Assembly: GCA_006503535.1 (NCBI GenBank)
Contig: QYRS01000013.1
Location: forward strand, 806,001 to 870,000
Direction: 5' to 3'
Length of the DNA stretch: 64,000 bases
Source: Arthrinium phaeospermum
Taxonomy: Eukaryota > Ascomycota > Sordariomycetes > Amphisphaeriales > Apiosporaceae
Shown: piece after piece, positions 38,059-59,749 of the stretch
Position numbering within the stretch: the first letter of the stretch is position 1
How the letters are laid out: the number at the start of each line of letters is the position of its first letter
The notes under the pieces: model-generated
Seen by the model: only the letters and a program-made list of their open reading frames with translations
Database searches by the model: none
Told to the model about the DNA's origin: nothing
Made by a program: the position numbers and the translations under genes

Positions 38059-39612
38059 TTCTCCTCCCCTTCGCGAAAGCAGCATTCCGCTTGCGGTGGT
38101 CGGGTGCCATCAATATTTACTTTATTTTTTGGATCGAAATCCTGGCCGCTGGGAATTGCACTACATGTCAGCAGTTGGGCCAGCCTGCCAGCGTCTCATT
38201 CATCAATTCATTCATTTACTCTCCCGTGTCTCGCTCCGCTCCACTGTGACTGCCACTCTTCTCTTGTCTTTCGTCTGCGATATTGCATGCCTCTAATGTA
38301 TGATTAATTGCTTGATCGATTTTTTTCTCTCTTTAATTCTCAGCATCCCGTTTAGGTCCATTCATTCCGTCCACTCATATGGCGCCCTGTCGCTTATCTG
38401 AAGCTGCTTGTTTCCGTCAGATCTAAAATCTTATCACAAAGACTTATTACTTACGAACGTCTTCTCCTACTTACTGTACGGGCCTCGGGCAACCCGCCGA
38501 TTCTTTTTGCTTGTCCGTTCCACAGTCATCCATCATTGCTAAATGCCTTGACTCAAGAGCCATACTTCTGTATCCTCTTGAATCGCACGTCTCTCGCTCT
38601 CTCCGTTACCACTTCTTCCCACTCTTCACCGCCTCGCCGACCAATCCCATTTGCCCAACTTCTTGCATGCAAGCCCTTCCCAACCTTCGGCGTTAAGTCA
38701 GTTTAGTGCAGGAACCAACCTTACTAGACGCCATAGCCGGAAACTCTGGCAGAGAGTCCACCAGCGGACCGCCCAATCCTCTCGCTGCTGTCCCTTTTCA
38801 AACCCCCTGCCTGGACCCTGAACCAGCGCGCAGGCGAGCCGAGTCGAGCGACCCTTCTGAGTCCATTGTTGTGTGGTTGGAGCGCCTTTTCGATTTCCTG
38901 TGGAACAGTGGAACTTCGTATACCCACCGCAGCACGATTGCATGTGCGAATCGTCCCCATTGTACTCCGTACTATACATGATATATTTCCCCAGTCCCCA
39001 ATTGTCCCTCTAGCCGGTGCCCCTGGTCTTTCTAGTCTTTCTAGTTCTTGCCCCTTGCTAATTGCACTGGCACATCTCGGTATGTACCTATCTCATATCT
39101 ACATATGTCCTCCCTTGCCGTTACCGGTCTCCCCAAGACGCCACCGGCGCCGTCGGGCTTGTCTGTGGAGAAAGGAAAAAGTGTTTTGATACACACGACT
39201 CGCTCTGTCAACGCCTGTTATAGAACTGCCAGTCACTGGCGTTTTGATGGGAGACCGAAGACGGTTGTGTAGATCCGCCTGTTCTTTTTTTGGGCGTTAC
39301 CCGTTCCTCACTCGCCCTTAGATACTAGATCCTGCGTTGCTGACTAGCTAGCCACAGCCACTGTTACAGATTCCACGCCTTGATCTTGCCATTGCTTTGT
39401 ATCGCAAAAGGGGTTTCGGTCGTTTATAAACCTCTCCGTCTCCCGATCACTACCCACGCTCACTACGCACCAGCGATTACAAGAGGCCGATCACTTGACC
39501 CCAACCCTGACCAGAACGTCACACTGAACACCCACCAGAGTCGATTCGCGGCCGAGCGCATAAGCAAGCTCTAGTGGCCATTGCGCCTTCAACGCGTCAA
39601 AACACCGGCGCA

Positions 39613-41859
39613 ATGCCGAGTACAACAACACCTGCGGAGCGGGCGTCCCCCTCTCCAACATCTGCCGCCGTCTATCTCCACGACGTGCCTTCTACATCAA
39701 GTGCCAGCGCCTTTTCTTACGACACAGGAGCAGACGGAATGGAGAAGGAAGGAGCGACGGACCACTGCCGACCGACCACGGCCAACCCTTTTCGCCGCAA
39801 GCAGAGTCTCTCCTCGGCTGTGACATGGCGTCGACGTCCGAAATCGTTAATGCTGAGCTTTGAGGGCGAGGGCGAGGGCGAAGACATAATCCCGAATGAT
39901 GTACGGATCCAGGCGATCCAAGAGGCGGGCCCAAGCATGGTGGATTTCGAACCGGGACACAAGCCAGGCACATCACTCAAGGGAAGGATACGTCGGGCGT
40001 CAATGAGCCTTGTCAAAGGTATCGTACAGCGCCGCGACCGCCGCTCGTCAGAACCCAGCAACGTCTTCCTCGATTTCCAGGACGAACAGCAAACACGCCC
40101 AACAACGTCTCACTCGGCGTGGCACAAGTTGCGTCAAGCTACCAGTTTCCGGCACCCGAGATCCAACAGCCGAGGAAACCTGGAGACCATCTATTCGCCT
40201 TTGGAGTCCCATTTCTCGAGTGTTCCCATACCTGGCCGCGGCCTTGAGCCCCCTATCATCCCTCGTCATACCGGTGCTGCTGCTAAGGCCTCTGCTGCCC
40301 TTCAAAACGAGTATTTGGCTTTTGCGCGCCAGCACGAGGATTCCTGGGGCGAACAGCCTCAGAATGACCGCGAAAGTGGCATCGGCATCAATATGGGCTC
40401 TTCCACCGAGCTTGGCCTGAGCCAAGAAACTGTGGCCCAGGATCCCTCCATCAGTAGGGTCGACTTCATTTCTCGACTGCCTTCAGAACTCGCCATCCAG
40501 ATTCTGTCGTATCTGGGCGCAACGCACCTCGCTGCCGCAACGAGGGTCTCTAGGACATGGAGCGGAATCGTCAACGACCAACAAATTTGGCGCGATTCTT
40601 TCCTGAGGGAGAAAACCACCACCTTTGCCACCGGTGCGCCAGTTCCGGCTGGTATGGGTTTGGGTGTGCCACGAGTCCAGCCGGGTAATGACTGGCAGAA
40701 GATCTATCGGGCCAAGCATGAGTTGGAGAAGAAGTGGAAGGAGGGTAACAAAGCCCGCCCCGTCTACCTCAATGGGCACTTCGACAGCATTTACTGCCTT
40801 CAGTTCGATGAGTAGGTTTTACAAAAGTACAGTACTGAGTTCCTTGACTAACACGTTGTTTGTAGATCCAAGATTATCACCGGCTCCCGGGACAAGACGA
40901 TTCGCATCTGGGACATGCGTACTTTTGAGTGCCGGCTCGTGATTGGGCCTCCGGAGGTGGTCAACGATACCTCGATTCTGTTTGATGCGAATGGCAGGCC
41001 AACTCATTATACATCCGGACCGGATGCCGAGAGGGCCCACGAGTCCTTTCCGGCAACTGTGTCGTTCCCAGTTCATCACAAGGCATCCATCCTGTGCATG
41101 CAGTACGATGATGGCATCCTAGTCACGGGCTCGTCTGACGGCACCTGCATTGTGTACAATATCAAGTCGGGCTACCGTCCGGTCCGCCGCCTTGAGCACC
41201 ATACAGCCGCTGTGCTGGATTTGGCGTTTGACGACAAGCATATTGTCACTTGTTCCAAGGACATTACTATTTGTGTCTGGGATCGTCACACTGGCGCGTT
41301 GCTGAAACAGCTCAAGGGCCATACTGGACCGGTCAACGCCGTACAACTGCGTGGCAACACGATAGTCTCGTGCTCCGGCGACTTCCGCGTCAAGATGTGG
41401 AACATTGACAGTGGTAAGGTGATCCGGGAGTTTTCGGGCCACACCAAGGGACTTGCATGCAGCCAGTTCTCGGAGGATGGGCGGTACATTGCGTCCGCCG
41501 GCAGCGACAAGGTCATCCGCATCTGGGATGCCAACACGGGAGAGTGCATCCGTGAGATGCAGGCGCACGAGAGCCTGGTCAGAAGCTTGCACATCGACAG
41601 CATCAGTGGTCGTCTGATCAGTGGCAGCTATGATACCGACATGAAGGTGTTTGACATGGAGTCTGGCGACCAGCTCTTGGACTTTCCACGCTGGCACGCA
41701 AGCTGGGTTCTGAGCGCCAAGAGTGACTACCGCCGCATCGTCAGCACGGGCCAGGACCCCAAGATCCTGATCATGGACTTTGGCGCGGATGTGAAAGATG
41801 TGAATCTTCTGGAAAGCGTGCCTACGGAGGATGTGGCGAAAGGGGCAGGCTTCATCTGA
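39613..41859 (+). CDS. F-box and WD40-repeat protein (SCF ubiquitin ligase adaptor)
   Basis: The model is join(39613..40811, 40866..41859), 2193 nt, 730 aa. An N-terminal region of about 280 residues is Ser/Thr/Pro/Arg-rich. The F-box follows at ~285-330 (FISRLPSELAIQILSYLG, then RTWSGIVNDQQIWRDSF). The beta-propeller spans ~385-720, with repeats ending in IRIWD, CIVYN, ICVWD, VKMWN, IRIWD and MKVFD. Such proteins bring phosphorylated substrates to Skp1-Cullin-F-box ligases. The arrangement resembles Met30/Pof1/beta-TrCP-type adaptors, but the substrate cannot be deduced. The 54-bp intron splits a codon at the start of the first repeat. The first in-frame ATG is 39613; the frame is open for 13 codons upstream without one. 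Confidence 0.92.
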
Positions 41860-44216: not shown

Positions 44217-45416
44217 ATGCAGAACATTCTCGCAGTCATTCTTCTCACCATTGCCGCCCTAGAGGGCGCCCTTACCGCACCTCTCGCAGACGCCAATGCG
44301 GTTGACGTTAGCACCAACGAGAAGTTCCCAGAGTCCGCTGCCTTTGACGTCGCCGAGGAAGTCTATGGTGAGTACATTTAAACGACATAAATACACATAC
44401 TCCCTCTGGAAGACTGGCTAACTTTTGAGTCACAGCTCGGGATGTTGCCGAAGATGACGAGAACAAGAACTGTACGTCACTTTCTGATGAACCTTTTTGC
44501 CCACCCTCCCCTCTTCCACACTGACACAGCTCATTACCATGTGCGGCATCAACTAAACATGAGTAGTGAGCCCACGACAAGGCTCGGCTCCGGATGCCGG
44601 GTTCCCAGGTGAGCGGCACAGGAAGAGCTGCCCCTTCTCAGCCGCATTCGCCTGCACGGAACTTGACAATGATGGCTGACCCCAAACGCTTTCTATAGAT
44701 ATCGCGAACGCTCCGGGCCCCCTGGCCGACCCAACCCCCTTGGACACGGCTCCAGAAATGTCCGAGGAGCCATCCGCTGTAGGACCCAGATCCCTCGACA
44801 TCGAGGAGAGAGACCTCGCCGAAGAGGAGGACCAGTTGGAGGCCCGCGACCTTGACACGGAGGATACCGGTGGCCTCGAGAAGAGAGTAAGCAACCATGC
44901 CTATTCCATGCCACATTGATAATGTTCTCTGACACGATTCGAAATAGCAACGCCGCGGAGGTGAGTTTGCGACCTGAGGAGATGGTACGCTCCATGAGAA
45001 CAGAATACTGACGATGGGCGATGTAGGACGCAGGGGCGGCAATCGTCGAGGAGGTACGCTTCGCTTTGACCCGGGTTGCTTTGCATACAGAGGAATACTG
45101 ACAATGCATATTACAGGACGCCGCGGTGGTAACCGCCGAGGAGGTACGTTTATTCCCCCTGATAGGACCACTCCGTAACAGAAACATACTGATGCCGAAT
45201 ACCACTAGGTCGTCGTGGTGGTGAGTCAGCAGCTCAAGAAGGAGTTGTAAGGAGGAGTTGTATTATACTGACGTCGAGCTTCATAGGTCGCCGAGGTGGT
45301 CGCCGTGGTGGTAACCGCGGCGGTAAGATACTCCCATCACCCTTTGGACTTCAGGCTCTCTCCAGGAGTTCAGTACTAATGGCAAGCACCCCACAGGTCG
45401 CAACCGAAACTACTAA
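44217..45416 (+). CDS. Secreted Kex2-processed Arg/Gly peptide precursor, ten exons with micro-exons
   Basis: The model is join(44217..44367, 44436..44471, 44567..44608, 44699..44886, 44948..44960, 45027..45053, 45117..45143, 45209..45220, 45287..45322, 45397..45416), 552 nt, 183 aa. All nine introns are GT-AG and phases match. Residues 1-20 are a signal peptide (MQNILAVILLTIAALEGALTA). Residues 21-139 form an acidic pro-region that ends in LEKR, a Kex2 site. The remaining 44 residues comprise 19 Arg, 18 Gly, 5 Asn, one Gln and one Tyr, built from GRRG and GRRGGNRRG units. Exons 5-10 measure 13, 27, 27, 12, 36 and 20 nt. Acidic pro-peptide plus cationic mature peptide is the layout of many secreted antimicrobial or signalling peptides; function is unknown. 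No UstYa-type oxidase or other RiPP enzyme is adjacent. Exons 2-3 rest on branch sites alone and are less certain than exons 4-10. Confidence 0.78.
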
Positions 45417-49056: not shown

Positions 49057-50724
49057 TCAGAAAGACTTCCAGTCGACCGCTTGCTCCCACGCATAGGCCA
49101 CCTTGAGTACGGTCATCTCATCCCAGAACCTCCCCACGATCTGCATGCTGGTTGGCACCATGACACTCGGATCCACCTCGGAAGGCACGAAACCAATCGG
49201 TACGGCCAAGGCCGGGTGGCCGGTCCCATTGAAGCTGGCCGTGTTCTCGGTCATGCCGCGTCCCGCGTCCATGTGCGCGACGGGCCCGGCGTCGACGGGC
49301 GGCAGCGGGAACGAGGCGCGCAGCGTCGTGGGCAGGAGCAGCACGTCGTAGCGCCCCAGCGCCGCGTCGTAGTCGTCCCGCAGGCGCCGGGTGAGGTTCA
49401 CGGCCTTGCCGTACGCGAGCGGGTACTGGGACCAGCCGAGCTCGCCCGCCAGCAGGCCCTCGTGGCTGAAGGCGCTCATCTTGCCCAGGGCCGCCTGCGT
49501 GTACGGCAGGTTCTTGCGCGCGGCCAGGTCCGTCAGCATCACCTGGCGCCGCCCCGTCGCCCGGCCCAGCATCCCCATGTGGTTGCCCATCTTGCTCAGG
49601 ACCGAGTAGATGAGGCGCGACGTGGCGTGCATGGGCACCGACACCTCCTCCACTGCCGCGGCGCCGAGTTTCTCCGCGAACACCTGGGCGGCCGCCAGGA
49701 ACTTGGCCTTGACGGCGGGGTTCATGGCGGCGCCTTCGAGGCCCTCCTTCAATACCCCTATGCGCAACCCCTTGGCACCGTCGGCTCCGCTGGTTCTTAG
49801 CTCATCCGCGTACCGGGGTACCTGGCCCGGGAAGGGGCACCCAGCACCCTGGCGGTCGTCGAGCCCGTCGGCGCCGGCCAGGACCTCGAGCAGCGTCGCG
49901 CACTCGAGGCAGGTGCGGGTCATGGGCCCCACGAAGTCGACGCTCGCGTCGTTGCTCGCAATACCGGTGTAGGGCACGAGGCCGAACGTGGGTTTGAAGC
50001 CGAACAGCCCGCACATAGCGGCGGGTATACGCACGCTGCCCCCCTGGTCGCAGCCGATTCCGAGGTCCACGGCGCCCGAGGCCACGAGCGCCGCCGTGCC
50101 CGAGCTGCTACCGCCCGCCGAGTAGCCCCGGGCGTAGGGGTTGTGGACGGGGCCCGTCGCCGCCGTCACCGACACGGCGCCGCGCGACAGGTTCTCGCAC
50201 ACAGCCTTGCCCGCGATCCGTCCCCCGGCCTCGAGCACGCGTGTCGCGACGGTGGCGTCCGTCTGCGGCGTCCAGCCCTGGAAGGACTCGGTCCCCAGCA
50301 GGCAGGGGACCTGGGCCAGCGCGATGTTGTCCTTGAGACACACCGTCTTGCCCTTCAGCGCAGTCGAGGACGGGCTGGTGTGTGCGCACTCGCACCGCCA
50401 CGCCCAAGCATTCAATGGATTGTTCGCTTCTTCTGGGAAGTGGACGTTGAGCCTGGGCGTGAGGCTGGAATCAGGTGATGGCTGGTAATCTTTCGGATAC
50501 GAGGCAATCATGTAGTTAGCCATAAAGAATTTTTTTTTTTTTTTTTAAAAAAAAAAGATCAAGGGAGATAGATGCTGGGCCAGAATACCATTCATTGCCG
50601 AGACCACCTCAAAGGTCTGTCGTGCTCTTTCGAGTAACACGGTAAAGTCATCTACATCTTGCTCGGGTATTTCATAGCCAACTGCAGTCGCGACTTCTTT
50701 TAGGACTTCTCTAGTTGCCGGCAT
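49057..50724 (-). CDS. Amidase (amidase-signature family)
   Basis: The model is complement(join(49057..50489, 50589..50724)), 1569 nt, 522 aa. It is a Ser-cisSer-Lys amidohydrolase. Lys98 lies in VCLKDN, the Ser cluster 173-175 in SAGGSSSGTA, and the nucleophile Ser197 in GCDQGGSVRIPA. The substrate is unknown; these enzymes hydrolyse amides such as acetamide, aryl amides or fatty amides. A long single-exon reading from ATG 50523 would give 488 aa, but it would replace a good N-terminus. Exon 1 (MPATREVLKEVATAVGYEIP onwards) splices through a 99-bp GT-AG intron to DYQPSPDSS, restoring the family's N-terminal helices. The intron holds a T17A10 run. It converges with the LtrA-type gene, 282 bp apart. 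Confidence 0.9.
50530..50556 (+). repeat. T17A10 homopolymer pair in the amidase intron
   Basis: Seventeen T (50530-50546) are followed directly by ten A (50547-50556). The pair can fold on itself in the pre-mRNA. It lies within the amidase intron, between donor and branch site. Confidence 0.9.
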
Positions 50725-51743: not shown

Positions 51744-54700
51744 TTACTTGGTCGTAGAAGTAGCAAACATGAAAGTTGAATGGGGGTTCCCTACTGTGCT
51801 GAAGTTATTGTGACGGTGAGTGGAAAGCTCATGCCCCCAAGAAGCCTGGGACAGGCTTTTCCAGGCATCTCGCTTAGCCACGATCTCACTGGCTTCCATC
51901 TGAGCGAGCTTGGTAGGTGTCAACAAGCCAGCAACTACGGCCTCGACGAATCTCGGCTCAGCTGACGAGTCCATAACCGCCCACTTTGCCTCGCGGACAC
52001 CCTGTATCTGTCTCTGGTGTTGTTGTTGTTCAAATGCCGCAGCAACTTCATGAGCTACTGCCCGACGTCTCTCGATATCGGCACCCGGACCTTTCGCTAA
52101 AAAGATTCTGCCAAGCTCGTTCTTAAAAGCCGGGAGATTGTCCCAATAGCTGTTTGCCTGCCTCAGCTGCGTGGTGGCACCGGGAACAGGCGCGACAGAA
52201 CCACCACCTGGCACTTGCTGCACAGTCGGTGTCGGTATATTGGGTGAAGCTGGCTGGTACATCGACTGACTGAGGGGGGCCATTGTCTGAGATGTTCCAT
52301 TCACTGTAAAGCTTCGGCTAGAGGTGGCAACTGCAGGAGCGGTGCTTCGTATACCACCACTAAGAGCCTGAGATGGGTTCGCCCCCAAAAAGCCCGATTG
52401 CGGAGTACCTGGAGCGGCAAACATGTTGATGTGCTGCGGCTGTGCAGTAGCTGCAGCTAAAGACTCTGCAACGCCGTTACTGGTGGGCAAAGGCTGGCCT
52501 CGTCGTGCGCGGAAGTCATTGATCAAACGTTGCACTTCCATTTCCTCTTCTTGCGCCAGGACCTCTTCTTCGAGGGCCTCTTCCTCGAAGGCATCCGTCA
52601 TCACGATCGATTTGACCTGCGAGCCCAGTTCCGAGTTAAGTATACCATCCAGTATGGCATCCTTGCCTAGATGCTCCATCACCTCTCCAGGTTCTGGGTC
52701 GCTTGGCATGTTGAACAGCTCGGCCAGCCGTTGTGCTTTGGGAATCGGCTTCTGGTCGTCAACAACGCGTTGAGCCAGTTGCATCTTGAAGATTTGCCTA
52801 TGATGCAGTTTCATGTCGACAGTCCCACCGCAAAGGAGGCGGTAAACGAAGACGGGCTTGGTCTGGCCGATTCGAAACGCTCTGCCTATTGCCTGCTGCT
52901 CTTGTTGCGGATTCCACTTTGAATCCATAATCACAACCCGATTTGCTCCTGTGATGTTCAGTCCCATCCCTCCTGCCGTTGTTGAGATTAGGAACACCTC
53001 GAAATTCGACTCCACTGCGTTGAAATCTCGCACCATACCCGGGCGTTTGCTGGTTTGCGTTTTCCCATCGAGCCGTAGATAATGACAGCGTCTGCTGTAT
53101 AACTTCTTCTCCAAATAGTCCATCGTTTTCATGGAATGGGAGAACACCAGAACTTTGTCGCCTTTACTCTTGCTCTCATCGAGAATTTTGTTGAAAAGCA
53201 GCATCTTTGACGAATAGGAAGCCTCGTTCAAGTCCCCATTAGGCATCGTCTGTAGCAACTCGCTGACCAGCACAGGGGGTAAGTTGACTTTTTCTGTACC
53301 GTCGTATTGTGGATAACCTTTGTCTTTCTGCTCCTTTAGTAAAGCCCTGAACGCACCTGGGTGGTTGCAAAGCACGGTCAGAGTAGTGGCACTAGCAAGC
53401 AGCGTTGAAGTACTGTTGTCACCTGTTCGGTTGAACTTAATATAAGTCTCGTAGAGTGCACGCTGGAGTGTGGTCAGCGGGACACTGATGACGAACTCCA
53501 TCTTCGGCGGGACGTCGTGATGCAAAACTGCGATGGTTCTTCGATGCACCTTTGGCGCAACCGTTTCCTTGAGGGCACGCAGTTTCGTCAGTGCCTTTCT
53601 CCTTTGGGCACGGGTGCTGTCCACAGATAGACCCTCTTCAATCGGTGTCGCATAGTCGTGGTCGAATTCTTTCTTGCTGGAAAGATAGCCAGGGCAGACC
53701 CAATTCAGCATTGAGTAGTAATCCTTGACCTTGTTCGCCAACGGTGAGCCGGTTAAAGCAAGGCGTGTCCTGGTTCTGAACTTGATGGCCGCGTGGTGTA
53801 ATTGAGAAGCCTCGTTCTTCATCATGTGAGCCTCATCAGCTATTACAATGTTGGCCTCGTCGAACAAGTGACCCGCCAGCTTAGGGCTTTGCGCGCAATT
53901 CTTGAACAGAGTATAACCTATGACCAGGATTCCGCCGTACTTCGCCCAGTCGACAATCTGGTCCTGTCGATCTTGAGGGGTTGTATCAGCATCAATCTTG
54001 TACAGATTCTCCGACTCATTCCCGAGTATCGGATGCCCATCTGGTATCCATATCAGAAGCTCGTCAGTCCAGTTGTTTACAAGTCCAGGCGGCGAAAGGA
54101 TCAGTGTTCTGGATTCTTTCAGCTCATCCGGAATCTGGTTGGAAATTGACGGATCGTCAGATGCGGCTGCATCTGCAATCGTGACCAACAGAGTGATGAT
54201 CTGCATCGTTTTGCCTAGGCCCATGGTGTGTGCTAGGAGACAGCCTTGGCGGCTCTGAGAGTCCGCCACCAACTGGTTCCACATGAAACGAACTCCTTCG
54301 ACCTGGTGCTTCTTAATACGGCTCGCAATATTATTAGGAACGTAGATGAAGCCCTGGTCGTCTTCCTTACTCTCATTGATGAGAAGGTGCGAGTTTTGAC
54401 TAGCCTCTGAGTGTCCTTGGGCGGCAAGTTTGGCACGGAGCAACTCTCGCCGTTTCGCTTGCTCCTTGACACGAACTTTATCGCTGTCTCGTAGATTCTG
54501 GGCAGCCCGATCCCTTTGAATCGGTTTACGCTTCTTGGTTGGAGACACATCGGGCTCCTCCTCGGGTTCCTCCTCGGTATCGGCATTGCCGTCTTCCGAA
54601 ATTACCTCTGGCTGCTCTAGCTGTTGGGTAGCAGGTGCTTCACCTTCTGGCTTTGTGCTTGCAGGGCGGTTAACCGGCGTGGACAATGGCGTACTGTTAC

Positions 54701-57320
54701 CGGCTGATCGTTTAAGTTGCGTGACCAGTTTGCAGTAAAAGTCCATGAATTCTCGGAAGTGCTGTGTTTTGAGGGACAAATAAAGTTTAGCTTCATCGGT
54801 CACTTGCCAGTACCCCCTCGGGTGAGGTGCGTGTCCGTCGGTGTATAGGTCGAATAGCATCGCCATGTAGCAGGACACAAAATAGTGTTTCTCGTTTTTG
54901 GATCGGCCGTTACCCTTCTTTTCGCCCTTGGAGTCGAATGGAGGACTAGTCCATTGATGACCAAGGTGAGGAATAATGTAATCTTTCCAGAGGTCCAGAC
55001 CACCATCTTGTGCTTCCTTATAGAGTTTACAGATGCCGAAAATCGATTCTCGGTATTCATGCGGAAGGTCAACCAGCTTGTTCTTTACCAGCTGACCGTA
55101 AGGGTTTCGAGGCGCAGGCGAGAATCCGGGAGATTCTTTAATGGATTTCCGGGCTAGAGACATCTGGAGGCTGGAAACCGGTTGGGACGATTGACTTTGG
55201 CGCTTGATACTTGGTGATTTCTTTTCTGGAGTAGTTAGATCCACATAACCCAGAGGGTATGAGGAACGTCGGGGCGTCGGTGTTTCAGGGGGGTTTGGTG
55301 CTGTTGGTCGCGAGGGTGCAGGTGAAAGGTTCACCTGAGTCAGGTCTGTGACTTCATCCAGAGCATGGCCGTTGCGAGTATGATTGCCCAGCACGTCAAA
55401 GAGGGACGGTGTCGAGCGGCTGGGTTCATCCACATGACCATCGCCTGCGACCTCTGCCATCAGGTCATCTTCAACTTCAGGCTCTTTGTCACCTCTTGGG
55501 GGAGTCGATCCTGGGTTGCCAGAGGTAACAAAACCGGCACCCACCGGCTCAGAACCTTGGACGCCTAGGTCGTTACCAACTCCTCCATCTTCACTGTCTA
55601 ACACCATCTCATCCGCTGAGGGCACCTCTTGCGAAAGAGGCGCGGGACTATGTTCGTCTTCAACAATGAAGTCATCGTCGGAGTCGCTCATGAGTAGGTC
55701 CCCTTCGTCTCCGTTGATTGTGGGTCGAGGCCGTTGTTCGCGTTTCTTGGCGGGCTTCCGAGTAACGTTGGAAACTCTCTTGGGTTCCGACGGTGACTTA
55801 ATGACCTGGAGTTTCCATTGCGCCGCTTGCAGATCTAGCACAGTGGGTTCAAAATTCCCCAGACAGGACTTGACATCAGTCTTATTGCGCCACTCCTGAT
55901 TGTTCACCTCCGCACGGAATTTGGCGAGGCGTTTTTGTAGATAGTCAACGTTTTGCTGAGCCATGTCGCGAGCCCATTTCAGACCATAGCGTCGGGCGAT
56001 GTTCCACTCAGTATTTGCACGACGCTCTAGCTTGGGCAGTTTGCGCTCAGTCCAGTTTGCGATATAATCGTTGATGCCTTCATCAAGAACCATGTTGACA
56101 TCATCTGATGACAGCGCCGTGCTCGATGCTGCCATGGCCTCGCGTTCTCTCTGCTCGGCCTCGATCTCTGCCCATGTGTCCGAGTCGTATTCCTCGTCGC
56201 TATCAGACTCGCCAAGAAGAGGTAGTACTTCGCCATGATCGGGGTCGTCAGCTCCAAAAACAGTATCAGTTTTCGCAGGTCGGCGGCTGGCTTTAGGGTC
56301 TGGCAGAGGGGAAAGGTTTTGGCGTCGACGTTCACGTTGGGCTTGTCGATGGGTCTTTTGTCGGACTTGTCGTTTGTAAAGTTGGTTGACTTGCCGGCGC
56401 CGACCGGCAGGGACCTGTGCCCGAAATGCAAACGTTGTATCCGCGTCGGTCAAGGGACCAGAGTCGAAGTCCACGACATCGACACGTGTAAGAGAATATT
56501 TACCAAGATACCAAGACTCATCGGAGGTACTTTGCCCACTTGCAGGTACGTTTATCGCAGTGGTATCAAGAATGGGTGCCTCAAGAAAAGGGTTATCCCG
56601 GAGCTTGCCTTTGCGCATCAACTGCTCGATGACAGTATCCGCCTGAGTAGGTATAGCTTGGCTGGCCAGCCCCAGGATTTGGCTGGAAACCTGTAAAGGC
56701 TCAATCCTTCTCTTCTTGCGACTCAATGCATCGTTGGCTGGTATGCTCTTAGGAAGACCGTTTTCTTTGGAACCATCATGATCTAGGATAGTAGTCGCTG
56801 CGGCTGTCGACTCTTCGGTCGCAAGAACTGGTGCTTGGACAGGCTCCACGTTCGACTTGGCATGATGTTCCAAAGCTTGCGACATCCGCTCTGCCTGAAG
56901 CTTTCGTTTTCTGATTTCAATGTCCTCAAGCTCGTCGTCGTTGTCCGACATGTCCACATCCGCATGTTTAATCTCGCCCTCACCCTCGTTCTCGTCGTCA
57001 TCTTGATCACGCTCGAGTAAATACTTCTTGTATTTACGACTGCGACGCCGAAATTGCGAAATGGCATCCCTCAAGGTGCTCTTGTGCTTGTTCGCTTTGA
57101 GCCCAAGATCCTTGAAGAAGCACTCGTCATCTGCGTCCTTGAGGAGACTGATACCATTTATCAGGTTGTCCCGTAGCGCATTCTCGAGACGGGTAGGGTC
57201 TGGCAAGATTGGAGGCTCCTCAAACGGTTTCCATGATCGTCCGCCAGTGCATAGTTCCTTCACAACTCGATCGGTGTCCCAATCCCAGGGATCAATGCCC
57301 TGGCCTGCTGAGGGCGCCAT
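51744..57320 (-). CDS. SNF2-family DNA translocase, Rad54/ATRX/ARIP4-like
   Basis: A single uninterrupted exon of 1858 aa, the largest gene in the window. An N-terminal SAM-like helical domain (residues ~10-95) is followed by about 800 residues of charged, mostly disordered sequence with acidic stretches. The ATPase core begins at about 1010. Walker A is LAHTMGLGKTMQ (~1030), Walker B/DEAH is IADEAHMM (~1160) and motif III is ALTGSPLANK (~1190). The C-terminal lobe has LVFSHSMKTMDYLEKKL (~1390) and, for motifs V-VI, GGMGLNITGANRVV with QAIGRAFRIGQTKPVFVYRL (~1450-1490). The order and sequences place it in the Rad54-like group near ATRX and ARIP4, nuclear enzymes that move nucleosomes or strip proteins from DNA. 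The C-terminal 300 residues are Gln/Ala/Pro-rich. ATG 57320 is the first in frame; the frame is open 21 codons upstream without ATG. Confidence 0.92.
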   Translation of the reverse strand: MAPSAGQGIDPWDWDTDRVVKELCTGGRSWKPFEEPPILPDPTRLENALRDNLINGISLLKDADDECFFKDLGLKANKHKSTLRDAISQFRRRSRKYKKYLLERDQDDDENEGEGEIKHADVDMSDNDDELEDIEIRKRKLQAERMSQALEHHAKSNVEPVQAPVLATEESTAAATTILDHDGSKENGLPKSIPANDALSRKKRRIEPLQVSSQILGLASQAIPTQADTVIEQLMRKGKLRDNPFLEAPILDTTAINVPASGQSTSDESWYLGKYSLTRVDVVDFDSGPLTDADTTFAFRAQVPAGRRRQVNQLYKRQVRQKTHRQAQRERRRQNLSPLPDPKASRRPAKTDTVFGADDPDHGEVLPLLGESDSDEEYDSDTWAEIEAEQREREAMAASSTALSSDDVNMVLDEGINDYIANWTERKLPKLERRANTEWNIARRYGLKWARDMAQQNVDYLQKRLAKFRAEVNNQEWRNKTDVKSCLGNFEPTVLDLQAAQWKLQVIKSPSEPKRVSNVTRKPAKKREQRPRPTINGDEGDLLMSDSDDDFIVEDEHSPAPLSQEVPSADEMVLDSEDGGVGNDLGVQGSEPVGAGFVTSGNPGSTPPRGDKEPEVEDDLMAEVAGDGHVDEPSRSTPSLFDVLGNHTRNGHALDEVTDLTQVNLSPAPSRPTAPNPPETPTPRRSSYPLGYVDLTTPEKKSPSIKRQSQSSQPVSSLQMSLARKSIKESPGFSPAPRNPYGQLVKNKLVDLPHEYRESIFGICKLYKEAQDGGLDLWKDYIIPHLGHQWTSPPFDSKGEKKGNGRSKNEKHYFVSCYMAMLFDLYTDGHAPHPRGYWQVTDEAKLYLSLKTQHFREFMDFYCKLVTQLKRSAGNSTPLSTPVNRPASTKPEGEAPATQQLEQPEVISEDGNADTEEEPEEEPDVSPTKKRKPIQRDRAAQNLRDSDKVRVKEQAKRRELLRAKLAAQGHSEASQNSHLLINESKEDDQGFIYVPNNIASRIKKHQVEGVRFMWNQLVADSQSRQGCLLAHTMGLGKTMQIITLLVTIADAAASDDPSISNQIPDELKESRTLILSPPGLVNNWTDELLIWIPDGHPILGNESENLYKIDADTTPQDRQDQIVDWAKYGGILVIGYTLFKNCAQSPKLAGHLFDEANIVIADEAHMMKNEASQLHHAAIKFRTRTRLALTGSPLANKVKDYYSMLNWVCPGYLSSKKEFDHDYATPIEEGLSVDSTRAQRRKALTKLRALKETVAPKVHRRTIAVLHHDVPPKMEFVISVPLTTLQRALYETYIKFNRTGDNSTSTLLASATTLTVLCNHPGAFRALLKEQKDKGYPQYDGTEKVNLPPVLVSELLQTMPNGDLNEASYSSKMLLFNKILDESKSKGDKVLVFSHSMKTMDYLEKKLYSRRCHYLRLDGKTQTSKRPGMVRDFNAVESNFEVFLISTTAGGMGLNITGANRVVIMDSKWNPQQEQQAIGRAFRIGQTKPVFVYRLLCGGTVDMKLHHRQIFKMQLAQRVVDDQKPIPKAQRLAELFNMPSDPEPGEVMEHLGKDAILDGILNSELGSQVKSIVMTDAFEEEALEEEVLAQEEEMEVQRLINDFRARRGQPLPTSNGVAESLAAATAQPQHINMFAAPGTPQSGFLGANPSQALSGGIRSTAPAVATSSRSFTVNGTSQTMAPLSQSMYQPASPNIPTPTVQQVPGGGSVAPVPGATTQLRQANSYWDNLPAFKNELGRIFLAKGPGADIERRRAVAHEVAAAFEQQQHQRQIQGVREAKWAVMDSSAEPRFVEAVVAGLLTPTKLAQMEASEIVAKRDAWKSLSQASWGHELSTHRHNNFSTVGNPHSTFMFATSTTK

Positions 57321-59749
57321 TGCTTCGATCCAACAGTGTGCAGTAGACACCTGCCAAACAGGTACTTGCGCCCAGCCTAACAAATATTCAGTTCAGTAAG
57401 CTCTGTATGTGTCAAATGTTGGTGCTGGAGGAAGGATGATGGCCAGCGTGACAGAGCAGCTGGAAAATAAGGAAGGTGGGGGGTATGTAGATTCCAGATG
57501 GGAGATCCGTACGGTGCTGTGAAGCGCAATGAAGTCCAGAATGCGCCCCTCCCATGCAGCGACTGTTTCCCACTCTCGAATGCTAGTAGATGGTGCCGCC
57601 TACCTTCTTTGGTAAAAAAATAAGTACGGCTGCCTGGGGCATCACATGCATACCCTGGGGCTCCAAGATCAGGACGATGCAGGTGAGAGTGGGCAGTGGC
57701 GGCCAGAACTATGGTGCTGAAGATGCTCAGATGGTGTCGGAAGTAGAACCCGATCCGAACGGCCTTGAACAAGTAGAGTCGGTACAAAGGCTTGGTAGAA
57801 ACGGGAAGCTTGTGTTATGCTGTGGTATCTGCCACCCGCTCTAGTCGTGGAAATGTTCTGTTCTAGAGGATGTAGGCATACAGAGGTGGAGAGGACGAAG
57901 GATTGCGTGAATGTTTCCCGGAACAAATGACAGGGAAATGGCAAAGAAGCAATCGTTGGGTTTTGGGAACAATCGCCGAGCAGGGGGGTTCGTGAATGCA
58001 GCGGTCGAATCGAATCGTTCGGATCGTGGGTGGTTGGAACAACAGAGATGAGGTCGTGATTTATCTGGGTGTGAATTTCGACAGGTTCATTGTGCGCGAA
58101 GGCGGACAATACATTGTAAGGCAGTGAATACAATTGTTGCTCCGACCCGATTGTAGCCCATTTTCGAAGTGAACAGTGGGTGAGGCCTCGAAACAAAATG
58201 AGTTCGGCAGACTGCGATAGGTAAACCACACGGGCTGATAGCTCAGTTCGTGGGATGTCAATTGGAGGATTGAAACCAACAATACACGCGCCTGCGAATA
58301 AGGTGAGGCGCGACTTCCTTAGGACCAAGACATGGACTTGGGGTCGAACCGCGCTAAGGATGTTGCAGTTAGCGCTTTCGTGGTGGGAAGAGCCTGAGCT
58401 GACCAGTCAATCAGCAGTGCTGAGAACCAGTACCGGTACCAGCCAGCAGGGATCTTAGCAGTGCGCCGAGCTTGGACGAAGTGGGGGTGGGGCAAGGCCG
58501 CTGCTTTTTGATTGTTTGATTCATCAATTCGCCGGCGGGTGGTAACTGACAACGCTGGGGTATATATGCAATAAGCAATATCTGCGTAGTCGTACATTCT
58601 GCATACCAGCGCATACTGCATATCCAACTATGCAATGCTTTGACCTGCTTTGACCCCTTTTTACATCATAATCGGTCTTTTCCAGGCCCGATTGGCTCGG
58701 GTGTTGAAATTGGTGCTGGATGTGACTTTATCCAGGTATAGGTCAACCGGTACCGTAGGAATCCAGCTTCGGACCTCATCTTCCAGCCTACTCAAGAACA
58801 TGGCCATTTCTAGTACTATTTGAGGCGTTTTTGAAGATGCTCGAGAAGCCTCGTTGGTCCTGACCTCGAACCAACCCCAAGCACCGTACCGGAGCCATCG
58901 CGCACCATCGTATCGGCTCTGTTAGCCTAGTCAACGGGAGGAGGCAGGAGGAGGCAGGAATTGGTGAGAGAAGGGGTTCAGATGGTGCGATGTACAATGA
59001 CTAATCAATATGTAATTATCCTTCTATCCCAACTTTTGTGTGGAATAAGCACTAATCGATTGGGATAATAGGATGTATGCACTATGCGCGTACATGCAAT
59101 TAATCCCCAGCGTTGTGGTAACTTCCTCCTCATCTACCGGCTTCCATGTGAGACAAGACAAGCACGAAACATGTGGTAAAACCAACAGGAAGCCGTTGGT
59201 GGCCGAGAACTCCTACATATGCACTTCTATTCAATGCCCAGTATTGCGAACGCTGCAACTGAAGATATTGATCTGCTTTACTGAGCTTGATTCCTTTCTT
59301 CCTGTCCACGTCCTGCACCACCACGAACCCCACATAGATTCTATCTAAAAGCACAGCTACTTAGGTTCAATGTGCATTGCACCGCATGCCGTGGAAACCT
59401 TCCGTCATCGCGGTAGTCAGGCGGGGTTACTAAAACAAATTCGCATTCATCTTATGAGAAATCCATCCCATTAATAAGCCACTCCGAAAACCACCGTAGT
59501 TCTTTCCTGGAGCTAGAAAATTATAGAGCGTGAATATTCTACGCCTGTGCTCTGAAATAGCAATTGCTTCACCTAAGGCCCCCGGTTTCTCTTTTTGAAA
59601 AATTTCATGTGGGCAAGTGCTAGTTAGGTGACATCATTCGCTGTTATCCCTACCGTCCTCAGAGGATAGGTAGATATTTGTGGCTAGCCCATTGATTTAT
59701 ATATCTACAAACTTGACACTTCTATAGTCTTGGGGCCCGTCTACTCAAG
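57321..59749. other. Gene-poor interval between divergent genes
   Basis: About 2.4 kb between the helicase and glutathione synthetase starts. A 219-codon minus-strand frame at 57669-58328 has no early ATG and no family-like sequence, and is not called. A short inverted repeat (GCGCTAA/TTAGCGC) occurs near 58350-58376. It should hold both promoters. Confidence 0.5.

Follow-up and report, generated by a model that had tools for sequence, protein, structure and literature searches.

Several described systems share features with the gene reported here, which occupies positions 44217..45416 on the plus strand of a 64-kb stretch of Arthrinium phaeospermum contig QYRS01000013.1 (the window, to which all coordinates refer). 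Dikaritin-type fungal RiPPs (ustiloxin and its kin) are made, like the product predicted here, from a secreted precursor with a Kex2-type site, but no match to a UstYa-type enzyme gene lies in the window. Schistosome micro-exon genes, for which PMC11121469 cites DeMarco 2010, are reported to encode secreted products on runs of short, phase-symmetric exons and to yield variant products by exon skipping; the likeness lies in a predicted secreted product and in short exons, four of which (27, 27, 12 and 36 nt) run from phase 1 to phase 1 in silico, whereas our gene is fungal. Arg/Gly tails of the type found here usually belong to intracellular RNA-binding proteins, which counts against a secreted product. 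The RGG/GAR domains of such proteins share only the Arg/Gly repeats with our protein, which adds a secretory start, an acidic pro-region and a Kex2-type site, and the secretory start argues against an intracellular RNA-binding protein.

Among Kex2-dependent systems, the Kex2-processed pro-domain (K2PP) effectors and class 1 Kex2-released peptides (PMC8528282, accessible part) likewise combine a signal-like start, a pro-region, an LxKR site and a kexin-like gene in the genome. The search rule for K2PP effectors, as given in that part, requires the Kex2 site to come before the midpoint of the protein, whereas here it occupies residues 124-125 in a chain of 169. The predicted product also differs in being an Arg/Gly polycation that lacks Cys, and Pfam returned no family at E up to 1. 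The KEX2-processed repeat proteins (KEPs; PMC6339444, accessible part) are also secreted precursors with repeats in the mature part; cutting after KR/RR yields ten fragments here, where their rule asks for at least four of at least two residues, but similar cores make up 8.3% of the protein (the rule as we applied it, without FIMO) against at least three cores and at least 15%, and our precursor has a single conserved Kex2-type site. The words exon and intron do not occur in the accessible text of two KEP papers. The nearest fungal parallel for the exon structure is the Xlr2 microexon of the filamentous ascomycete Trichoderma virens (PMC11121469, accessible part), a short exon whose skipping alters the protein and which the gene model had missed; that case involves one 20-nt exon in a transcription factor, whereas here there are six short exons in a gene for a putative secreted peptide. 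The same 2024 paper states, in the part available, that functional microexons were previously undescribed in filamentous fungi and, judging by it, the six-micro-exon layout is unusual for such an organism.

In silico splicing of nine exons gives a protein of 169 residues, with the following elements.

44217..44367, plus strand: exon 1, 151 nt, with the ATG at 44217
44217-44279, plus strand: signal-peptide-like start MQNILAVILLTIAALEGALTA (codons 1-21, exon 1)
44368..44435, plus strand: intron 1, 68 nt, GTGAGT..CTAAC..CAG
44436..44471, plus strand: exon 2, 36 nt
44472..44698, plus strand: intron 2, 227 nt, CTGAC 18 nt before its end; includes 44530-44562
44699..44886, plus strand: exon 3 (exon 4 of the original prediction), 188 nt, acidic pro-region ending in LEKR
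44887..44947, plus strand: intron 3, 61 nt, CTGAC 14 nt before its end
44948..44960, plus strand: micro-exon of 13 nt (exon 5 of the original prediction), residues QRRG, sets the Arg/Gly frame
44961..45026, plus strand: intron 4, 66 nt, TACTGAC
45027..45053, plus strand: micro-exon of 27 nt, phase 1 to 1, RRGGNRRG unit
45054..45116, plus strand: intron 5, 63 nt, TACTGAC
45117..45143, plus strand: micro-exon of 27 nt, phase 1 to 1, the RRGGNRRG unit again with 6 synonymous differences
45144..45208, plus strand: intron 6, 65 nt, TACTGAT
45209..45220, plus strand: micro-exon of 12 nt, phase 1 to 1
45221..45286, plus strand: intron 7, 66 nt, TACTGAC; translated in frame, it begins VSQQLKKEL*
45287..45322, plus strand: micro-exon of 36 nt, phase 1 to 1
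45323..45396, plus strand: intron 8, 74 nt, TACTAAT
45397..45416, plus strand: last exon, 20 nt including the stop TAA (45414-45416)

Splicing the originally predicted exons in silico gives back the protein first proposed. Read directly from the sequence, the six late exons (13, 27, 27, 12, 36 and 20 nt) have GT-AG introns and matching phases, as had been proposed. Intron 3 is in phase 0 and introns 4 to 8 are all in phase 1, which makes the micro-exons of 27, 27, 12 and 36 nt symmetric modules. The ten exons of the original prediction are reduced to nine by the loss of its third (44530-44562): joining exon 2 directly to 44699 reads KNYIANAPG, matching KNYISNAPG in the related proteins P0001 and P0002 (introduced below), which leaves that exon unsupported, and the insert is likewise absent from P0005 and P0008. 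P0003 and P0006 are longer at this place, with different residues, and the downstream frame is the same with or without the discarded exon. Intron 2 stands out in length (227 nt, against 61-74 nt for the other seven), and the discarded exon would divide it into 58 + 136 nt.

The layout is more than chance would be expected to produce. A CTRAY branch signal with 13-18 nt left to the 3' end is present in 8/8 introns of the nine-exon model, compared to a mean of 1.14 of 8 in dinucleotide shuffles (0/2000 of which reach 8), and TACTRAY occurs in 5/8 introns against a shuffle mean of 0.10. The two 27-nt micro-exons (exons 6 and 7 in the original numbering) both encode GRRGGNRRG although 6/27 bases differ, all synonymously and including AGG vs CGC; random sets of 6 changes were all synonymous in only 80/200000 trials. 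When introns were compared for the similarity that tandem duplication of an intron-exon unit would leave, only pairs 4/6 and 4/8 stood out of 15, with 2/200 shuffles reaching each. Between species, using unit boundaries set by the analyst, position 2 vs 3 of the Arg/Gly codons differs at 3 vs 8 of 33 sites for the window and P0001 (P = 0.19) and at 1 vs 6 of 21 for the window and P0005 (P = 0.09), a test that leans to the Arg/Gly frame but is not significant. We hold with good confidence that the gene itself, and the Arg/Gly frame of its tail, are real.

Three protein searches recovered 13 distinct relatives (P0001-P0013), 9 from named Apiospora entries and 4 others. The named sources are Apiospora sp. 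TS-2023a, A. saccharicola, A. arundinis, A. phragmitis, A. kogelbergensis, A. hydei and A. rasikravindrae, together with two neighbouring models from A. aurea, so that the relatives span 8 other Apiospora species entries. Outside Apiospora, no named relative appeared at E up to 10 among the roughly 8000 candidates sharing most words that were scored per search; the gene thus appears, so far, only in Apiospora. The alignment used for comparison has 8 rows, without P0004 and P0009-P0012; P0001-P0003, P0005 and P0007 were trimmed after KR and P0006 at residue 103, and P0013 lies outside the comparison.

Only one of the 9 named models, P0003 from A. arundinis, carries the Arg/Gly tail, and 8/9 are without it. 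P0003 has the junction GLEKRQRRGG exactly as in the window, with QRRG after LEKR and then an Arg/Gly tail, while its pre-pro region is only 45-49% identical to that of the window. (The annotation of A. arundinis AAU 773 used RNA-seq, according to the accessible part of PMC10999098, and public RNA-seq of this strain is deposited as BioProject PRJNA891674; the annotation is not necessarily the annotation behind P0003, record PG990_005768.) P0007 seems to run into intron 3, and P0006, P0008 and P0011 stop earlier. P0001, P0002, P0005 and P0012 continue in a different frame after GLEKR, as would be expected if the 13-nt exon had been skipped. Back-decoding their tails gives leading runs compatible with Arg/Gly/Asn of 36, 13, 24 and 15 positions; such runs are no proof because Val, Ala, Asp, Glu, Gly, Ile, Thr and Met are all compatible. 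The stretches VSPQTRPEL (P0005) and VSPRSREEL (P0012) resemble the start of window intron 7 read in that frame, which suggests that the position of this intron is conserved.

These four models bear directly on whether the true product might instead have a Val/Ala/Glu-rich tail, the 13-nt stretch being no exon. They carry that frame, and it is open over 59 residues in the window, but within the tail it is open by composition, because Arg/Gly/Asn codons read one base later never begin with T. Moreover, the two 27-nt micro-exons differ in 5/8 residues in this frame and in 0 in the Arg/Gly frame, P0005 and P0012 terminate by reading into what resembles intron 7, and the A. arundinis model follows the Arg/Gly frame; we consider a Val/Ala/Glu-rich product highly improbable. 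Both frames could also be used, inclusion of the 13-nt exon giving the cationic tail and skipping an acidic one (-6). An exon of 13 nt shifts the frame, neither frame is interrupted by a stop, both forms occur among public models of different species, and a 20-nt microexon switch is described for T. virens Xlr2 in the available part of PMC11121469. Against this stand the same compositional openness within the tail and the stretch past the Arg/Gly stop, where the window and P0001 differ at 7/38 scored codon positions over 19 residues (4/19 first, 3/19 second), no clear sign of protein constraint on the second frame. We judge such a switch unlikely, and give equally little weight to its extension, in which the 13-nt exon would toggle between the +19 and acidic tails while the four phase-symmetric micro-exons, skipped singly, would tune polycation length as in schistosome micro-exon genes.

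The predicted Arg/Gly precursor is laid out as follows. Hydropathy peaks at 2.62 over residues 3-15 (best later value, 0.23), and a signal-like segment is present in 8/8 aligned rows, so the N-terminal secretion signal that had been proposed is upheld as a prediction by both the profile and its conservation. The pro-region, acidic as described, holds 31 acidic and 8 basic residues (net -23) with LEKR at its end, and the 44-residue tail comprises 19 Arg, 18 Gly, 5 Asn, 1 Gln and 1 Tyr with no acidic residue (net +19). In A. arundinis the corresponding charges are -19 and +17, and thus pro-region and tail nearly cancel in two species. Among PDB entries, a HABP4_PAI-RBP1 domain protein is a weak match (E 0.07).

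The boundary between pro-region and product is a conserved Kex2-type motif: GLEKR is found in 7/7 sequences that reach it (the window, P0001, P0002, P0003, P0005, P0007 and P0012). The genome also contains a gene (locus L040) that we take to be kexin-like. It has a 579-residue frame in which subtilase motifs were picked out by eye, with a second frame after it, and a P-domain match that spans positions 1-65 of the 86-position profile; the frame of this match is interrupted by two stops, presumably within an intron. According to the accessible part of PMC8528282, Kex2 favours an aliphatic residue such as Leu at P4, with Lys-Arg in positions P2-P1, and LEKR places Leu, Lys and Arg at these preferred positions. 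The tail contains further Arg-Arg pairs, eight in the window protein against four in that of A. arundinis, and the original prediction had suggested that they could be cut as well, a suggestion that now looks doubtful. Taken to its limit, it would make the gene a Kex2-processed repeat protein in which every Arg-Arg is cut to release many small peptides. The eight pairs, and a fragment number sufficient for the first step of the published pipeline, speak for this; yet the resulting cores would be Q, GG and GGN, at 8.3% (as applied) below the 15% motif share given in the accessible part of PMC6339444, and P4 is Gly in 7/8 of the internal sites (Arg in the first). With Gly at those positions and only 4 pairs in A. 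arundinis, a single cut is likelier than many, and we regard the repeat-protein reading as very improbable. P0003 and P0006 (A. kogelbergensis) carry an extra KR within their pro-regions (EKQKRGEDPGAF), which might serve Kex2 as a second site and which the window protein lacks.

We consider it reasonably probable that this is a nine-exon gene for a secreted pre-pro-peptide from which a kexin releases an Arg/Gly/Asn polycation that binds polyanions. What was originally proposed, a secreted, Kex2-type cationic Arg/Gly precursor on micro-exons, is thus the best-supported account in its main lines (the conserved signal-like start, GLEKR, the kexin-like gene and the charge balance all point to it), while its ten exons become nine and its internal Arg-Arg cuts look doubtful. 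In the scheme of splicing, secretion, cutting, masking and target that we infer, the signal peptide would direct the precursor into the secretory pathway, and the acidic pro-region (-23) would pair with the +19 tail, silencing it inside the cell. The kexin would then make one cut after LEKR, freeing a 44-residue disordered polycation of about 4874 Da whose N-terminal Gln may close to pyroglutamate, which would lower the mass by 17 Da. Once outside, the polycation would bind polyanions of rival microbes or the host plant, be they anionic membranes, wall polymers or nucleic acids.

Rather than being antimicrobial, the Arg/Gly tail might enter plant cells or nuclei and bind RNA there as a host-directed effector. 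Arg-rich tails can cross membranes and bind RNA, which counts for this idea, as does the fact that A. phaeospermum is a bamboo pathogen (PMC11821928; PMC8954856, accessible parts). We rate a host-directed role as a possibility on the low side.

Within the same genome, a protein search for paralogs returned 3 matches, two of them to this gene and one at E = 0.11. The Arg/Gly micro-exon pattern matched 47 times (3 in this gene) against 64 in the reversed control, and the Arg/Gly donor-intron-acceptor pattern 23 times (4 in this gene) against 25, so there is no genome-wide excess of such patterns; the 4 of 23 in this gene are, however, consecutive, and no other two listed matches adjoin. A chain detector applied to the window and to 25 loci, of which 20 came from the set of 47, reported a run only in this gene, which also accounts for loci L001-L003. 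Locus L039 has no Arg/Gly frame among its 4 ORFs of at least 100 aa. A minus-strand two-site pair at 50339/50538 (script's numbering; GT-AG-bounded Arg/Gly stretches only) was dismissed as a chance pair.

A Pfam scan took 19 of the 167 stop-to-stop frames of at least 110 aa in the window. It identified F-box, WD40, LtrA, amidase, CAP59-type, SNF2, actin-like, glutathione synthase, TPR/DnaJ and dynactin p62 families, with 9/19 frames without a family. The neighbours with a family are ordinary genes, including the following.

39511-41856: F-box and WD40 (Pfam)
46913: LtrA (Pfam)
49060-50544, minus strand: amidase (Pfam)
51747-57392, minus strand: SNF2 (Pfam)

No peptide-modifying enzyme was found among the 19 scanned frames, neither Rfam nor the tRNA scan gave a match in the window, and none of the 24 exon-level UstYa (PF11807) matches in the genome falls in the window, the nearest (C13:968491) being ~117 kb off on the same contig. 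Judged by these searches, the gene is solitary and not part of a RiPP cluster; the 24 UstYa matches raise the possibility of several RiPP-type clusters elsewhere in the genome.

Searched by title and abstract start, with subscription journals mostly outside coverage, the literature yielded no report of such a peptide or gene or of a secreted fungal Arg/Gly peptide. A gene built in this way tends to escape gene finders. It has relatives in as many as 8 other Apiospora species entries, and 8/9 named public models are without the Arg/Gly tail, which suggests that catalogues of fungal secretomes and effectors may lack a class of secreted cationic peptides.

Two minor observations concern the surrounding sequence and the same genome. 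Positions 1-2000 of the window are AT-rich, with 34% GC against 50-61% in the other 2-kb steps. Elsewhere, locus L038 (C12:52000-55500) contains a GAR1-like frame, and an apparent intron inside the RGG tail of this GAR1-like gene matches the Arg/Gly donor-acceptor pattern.
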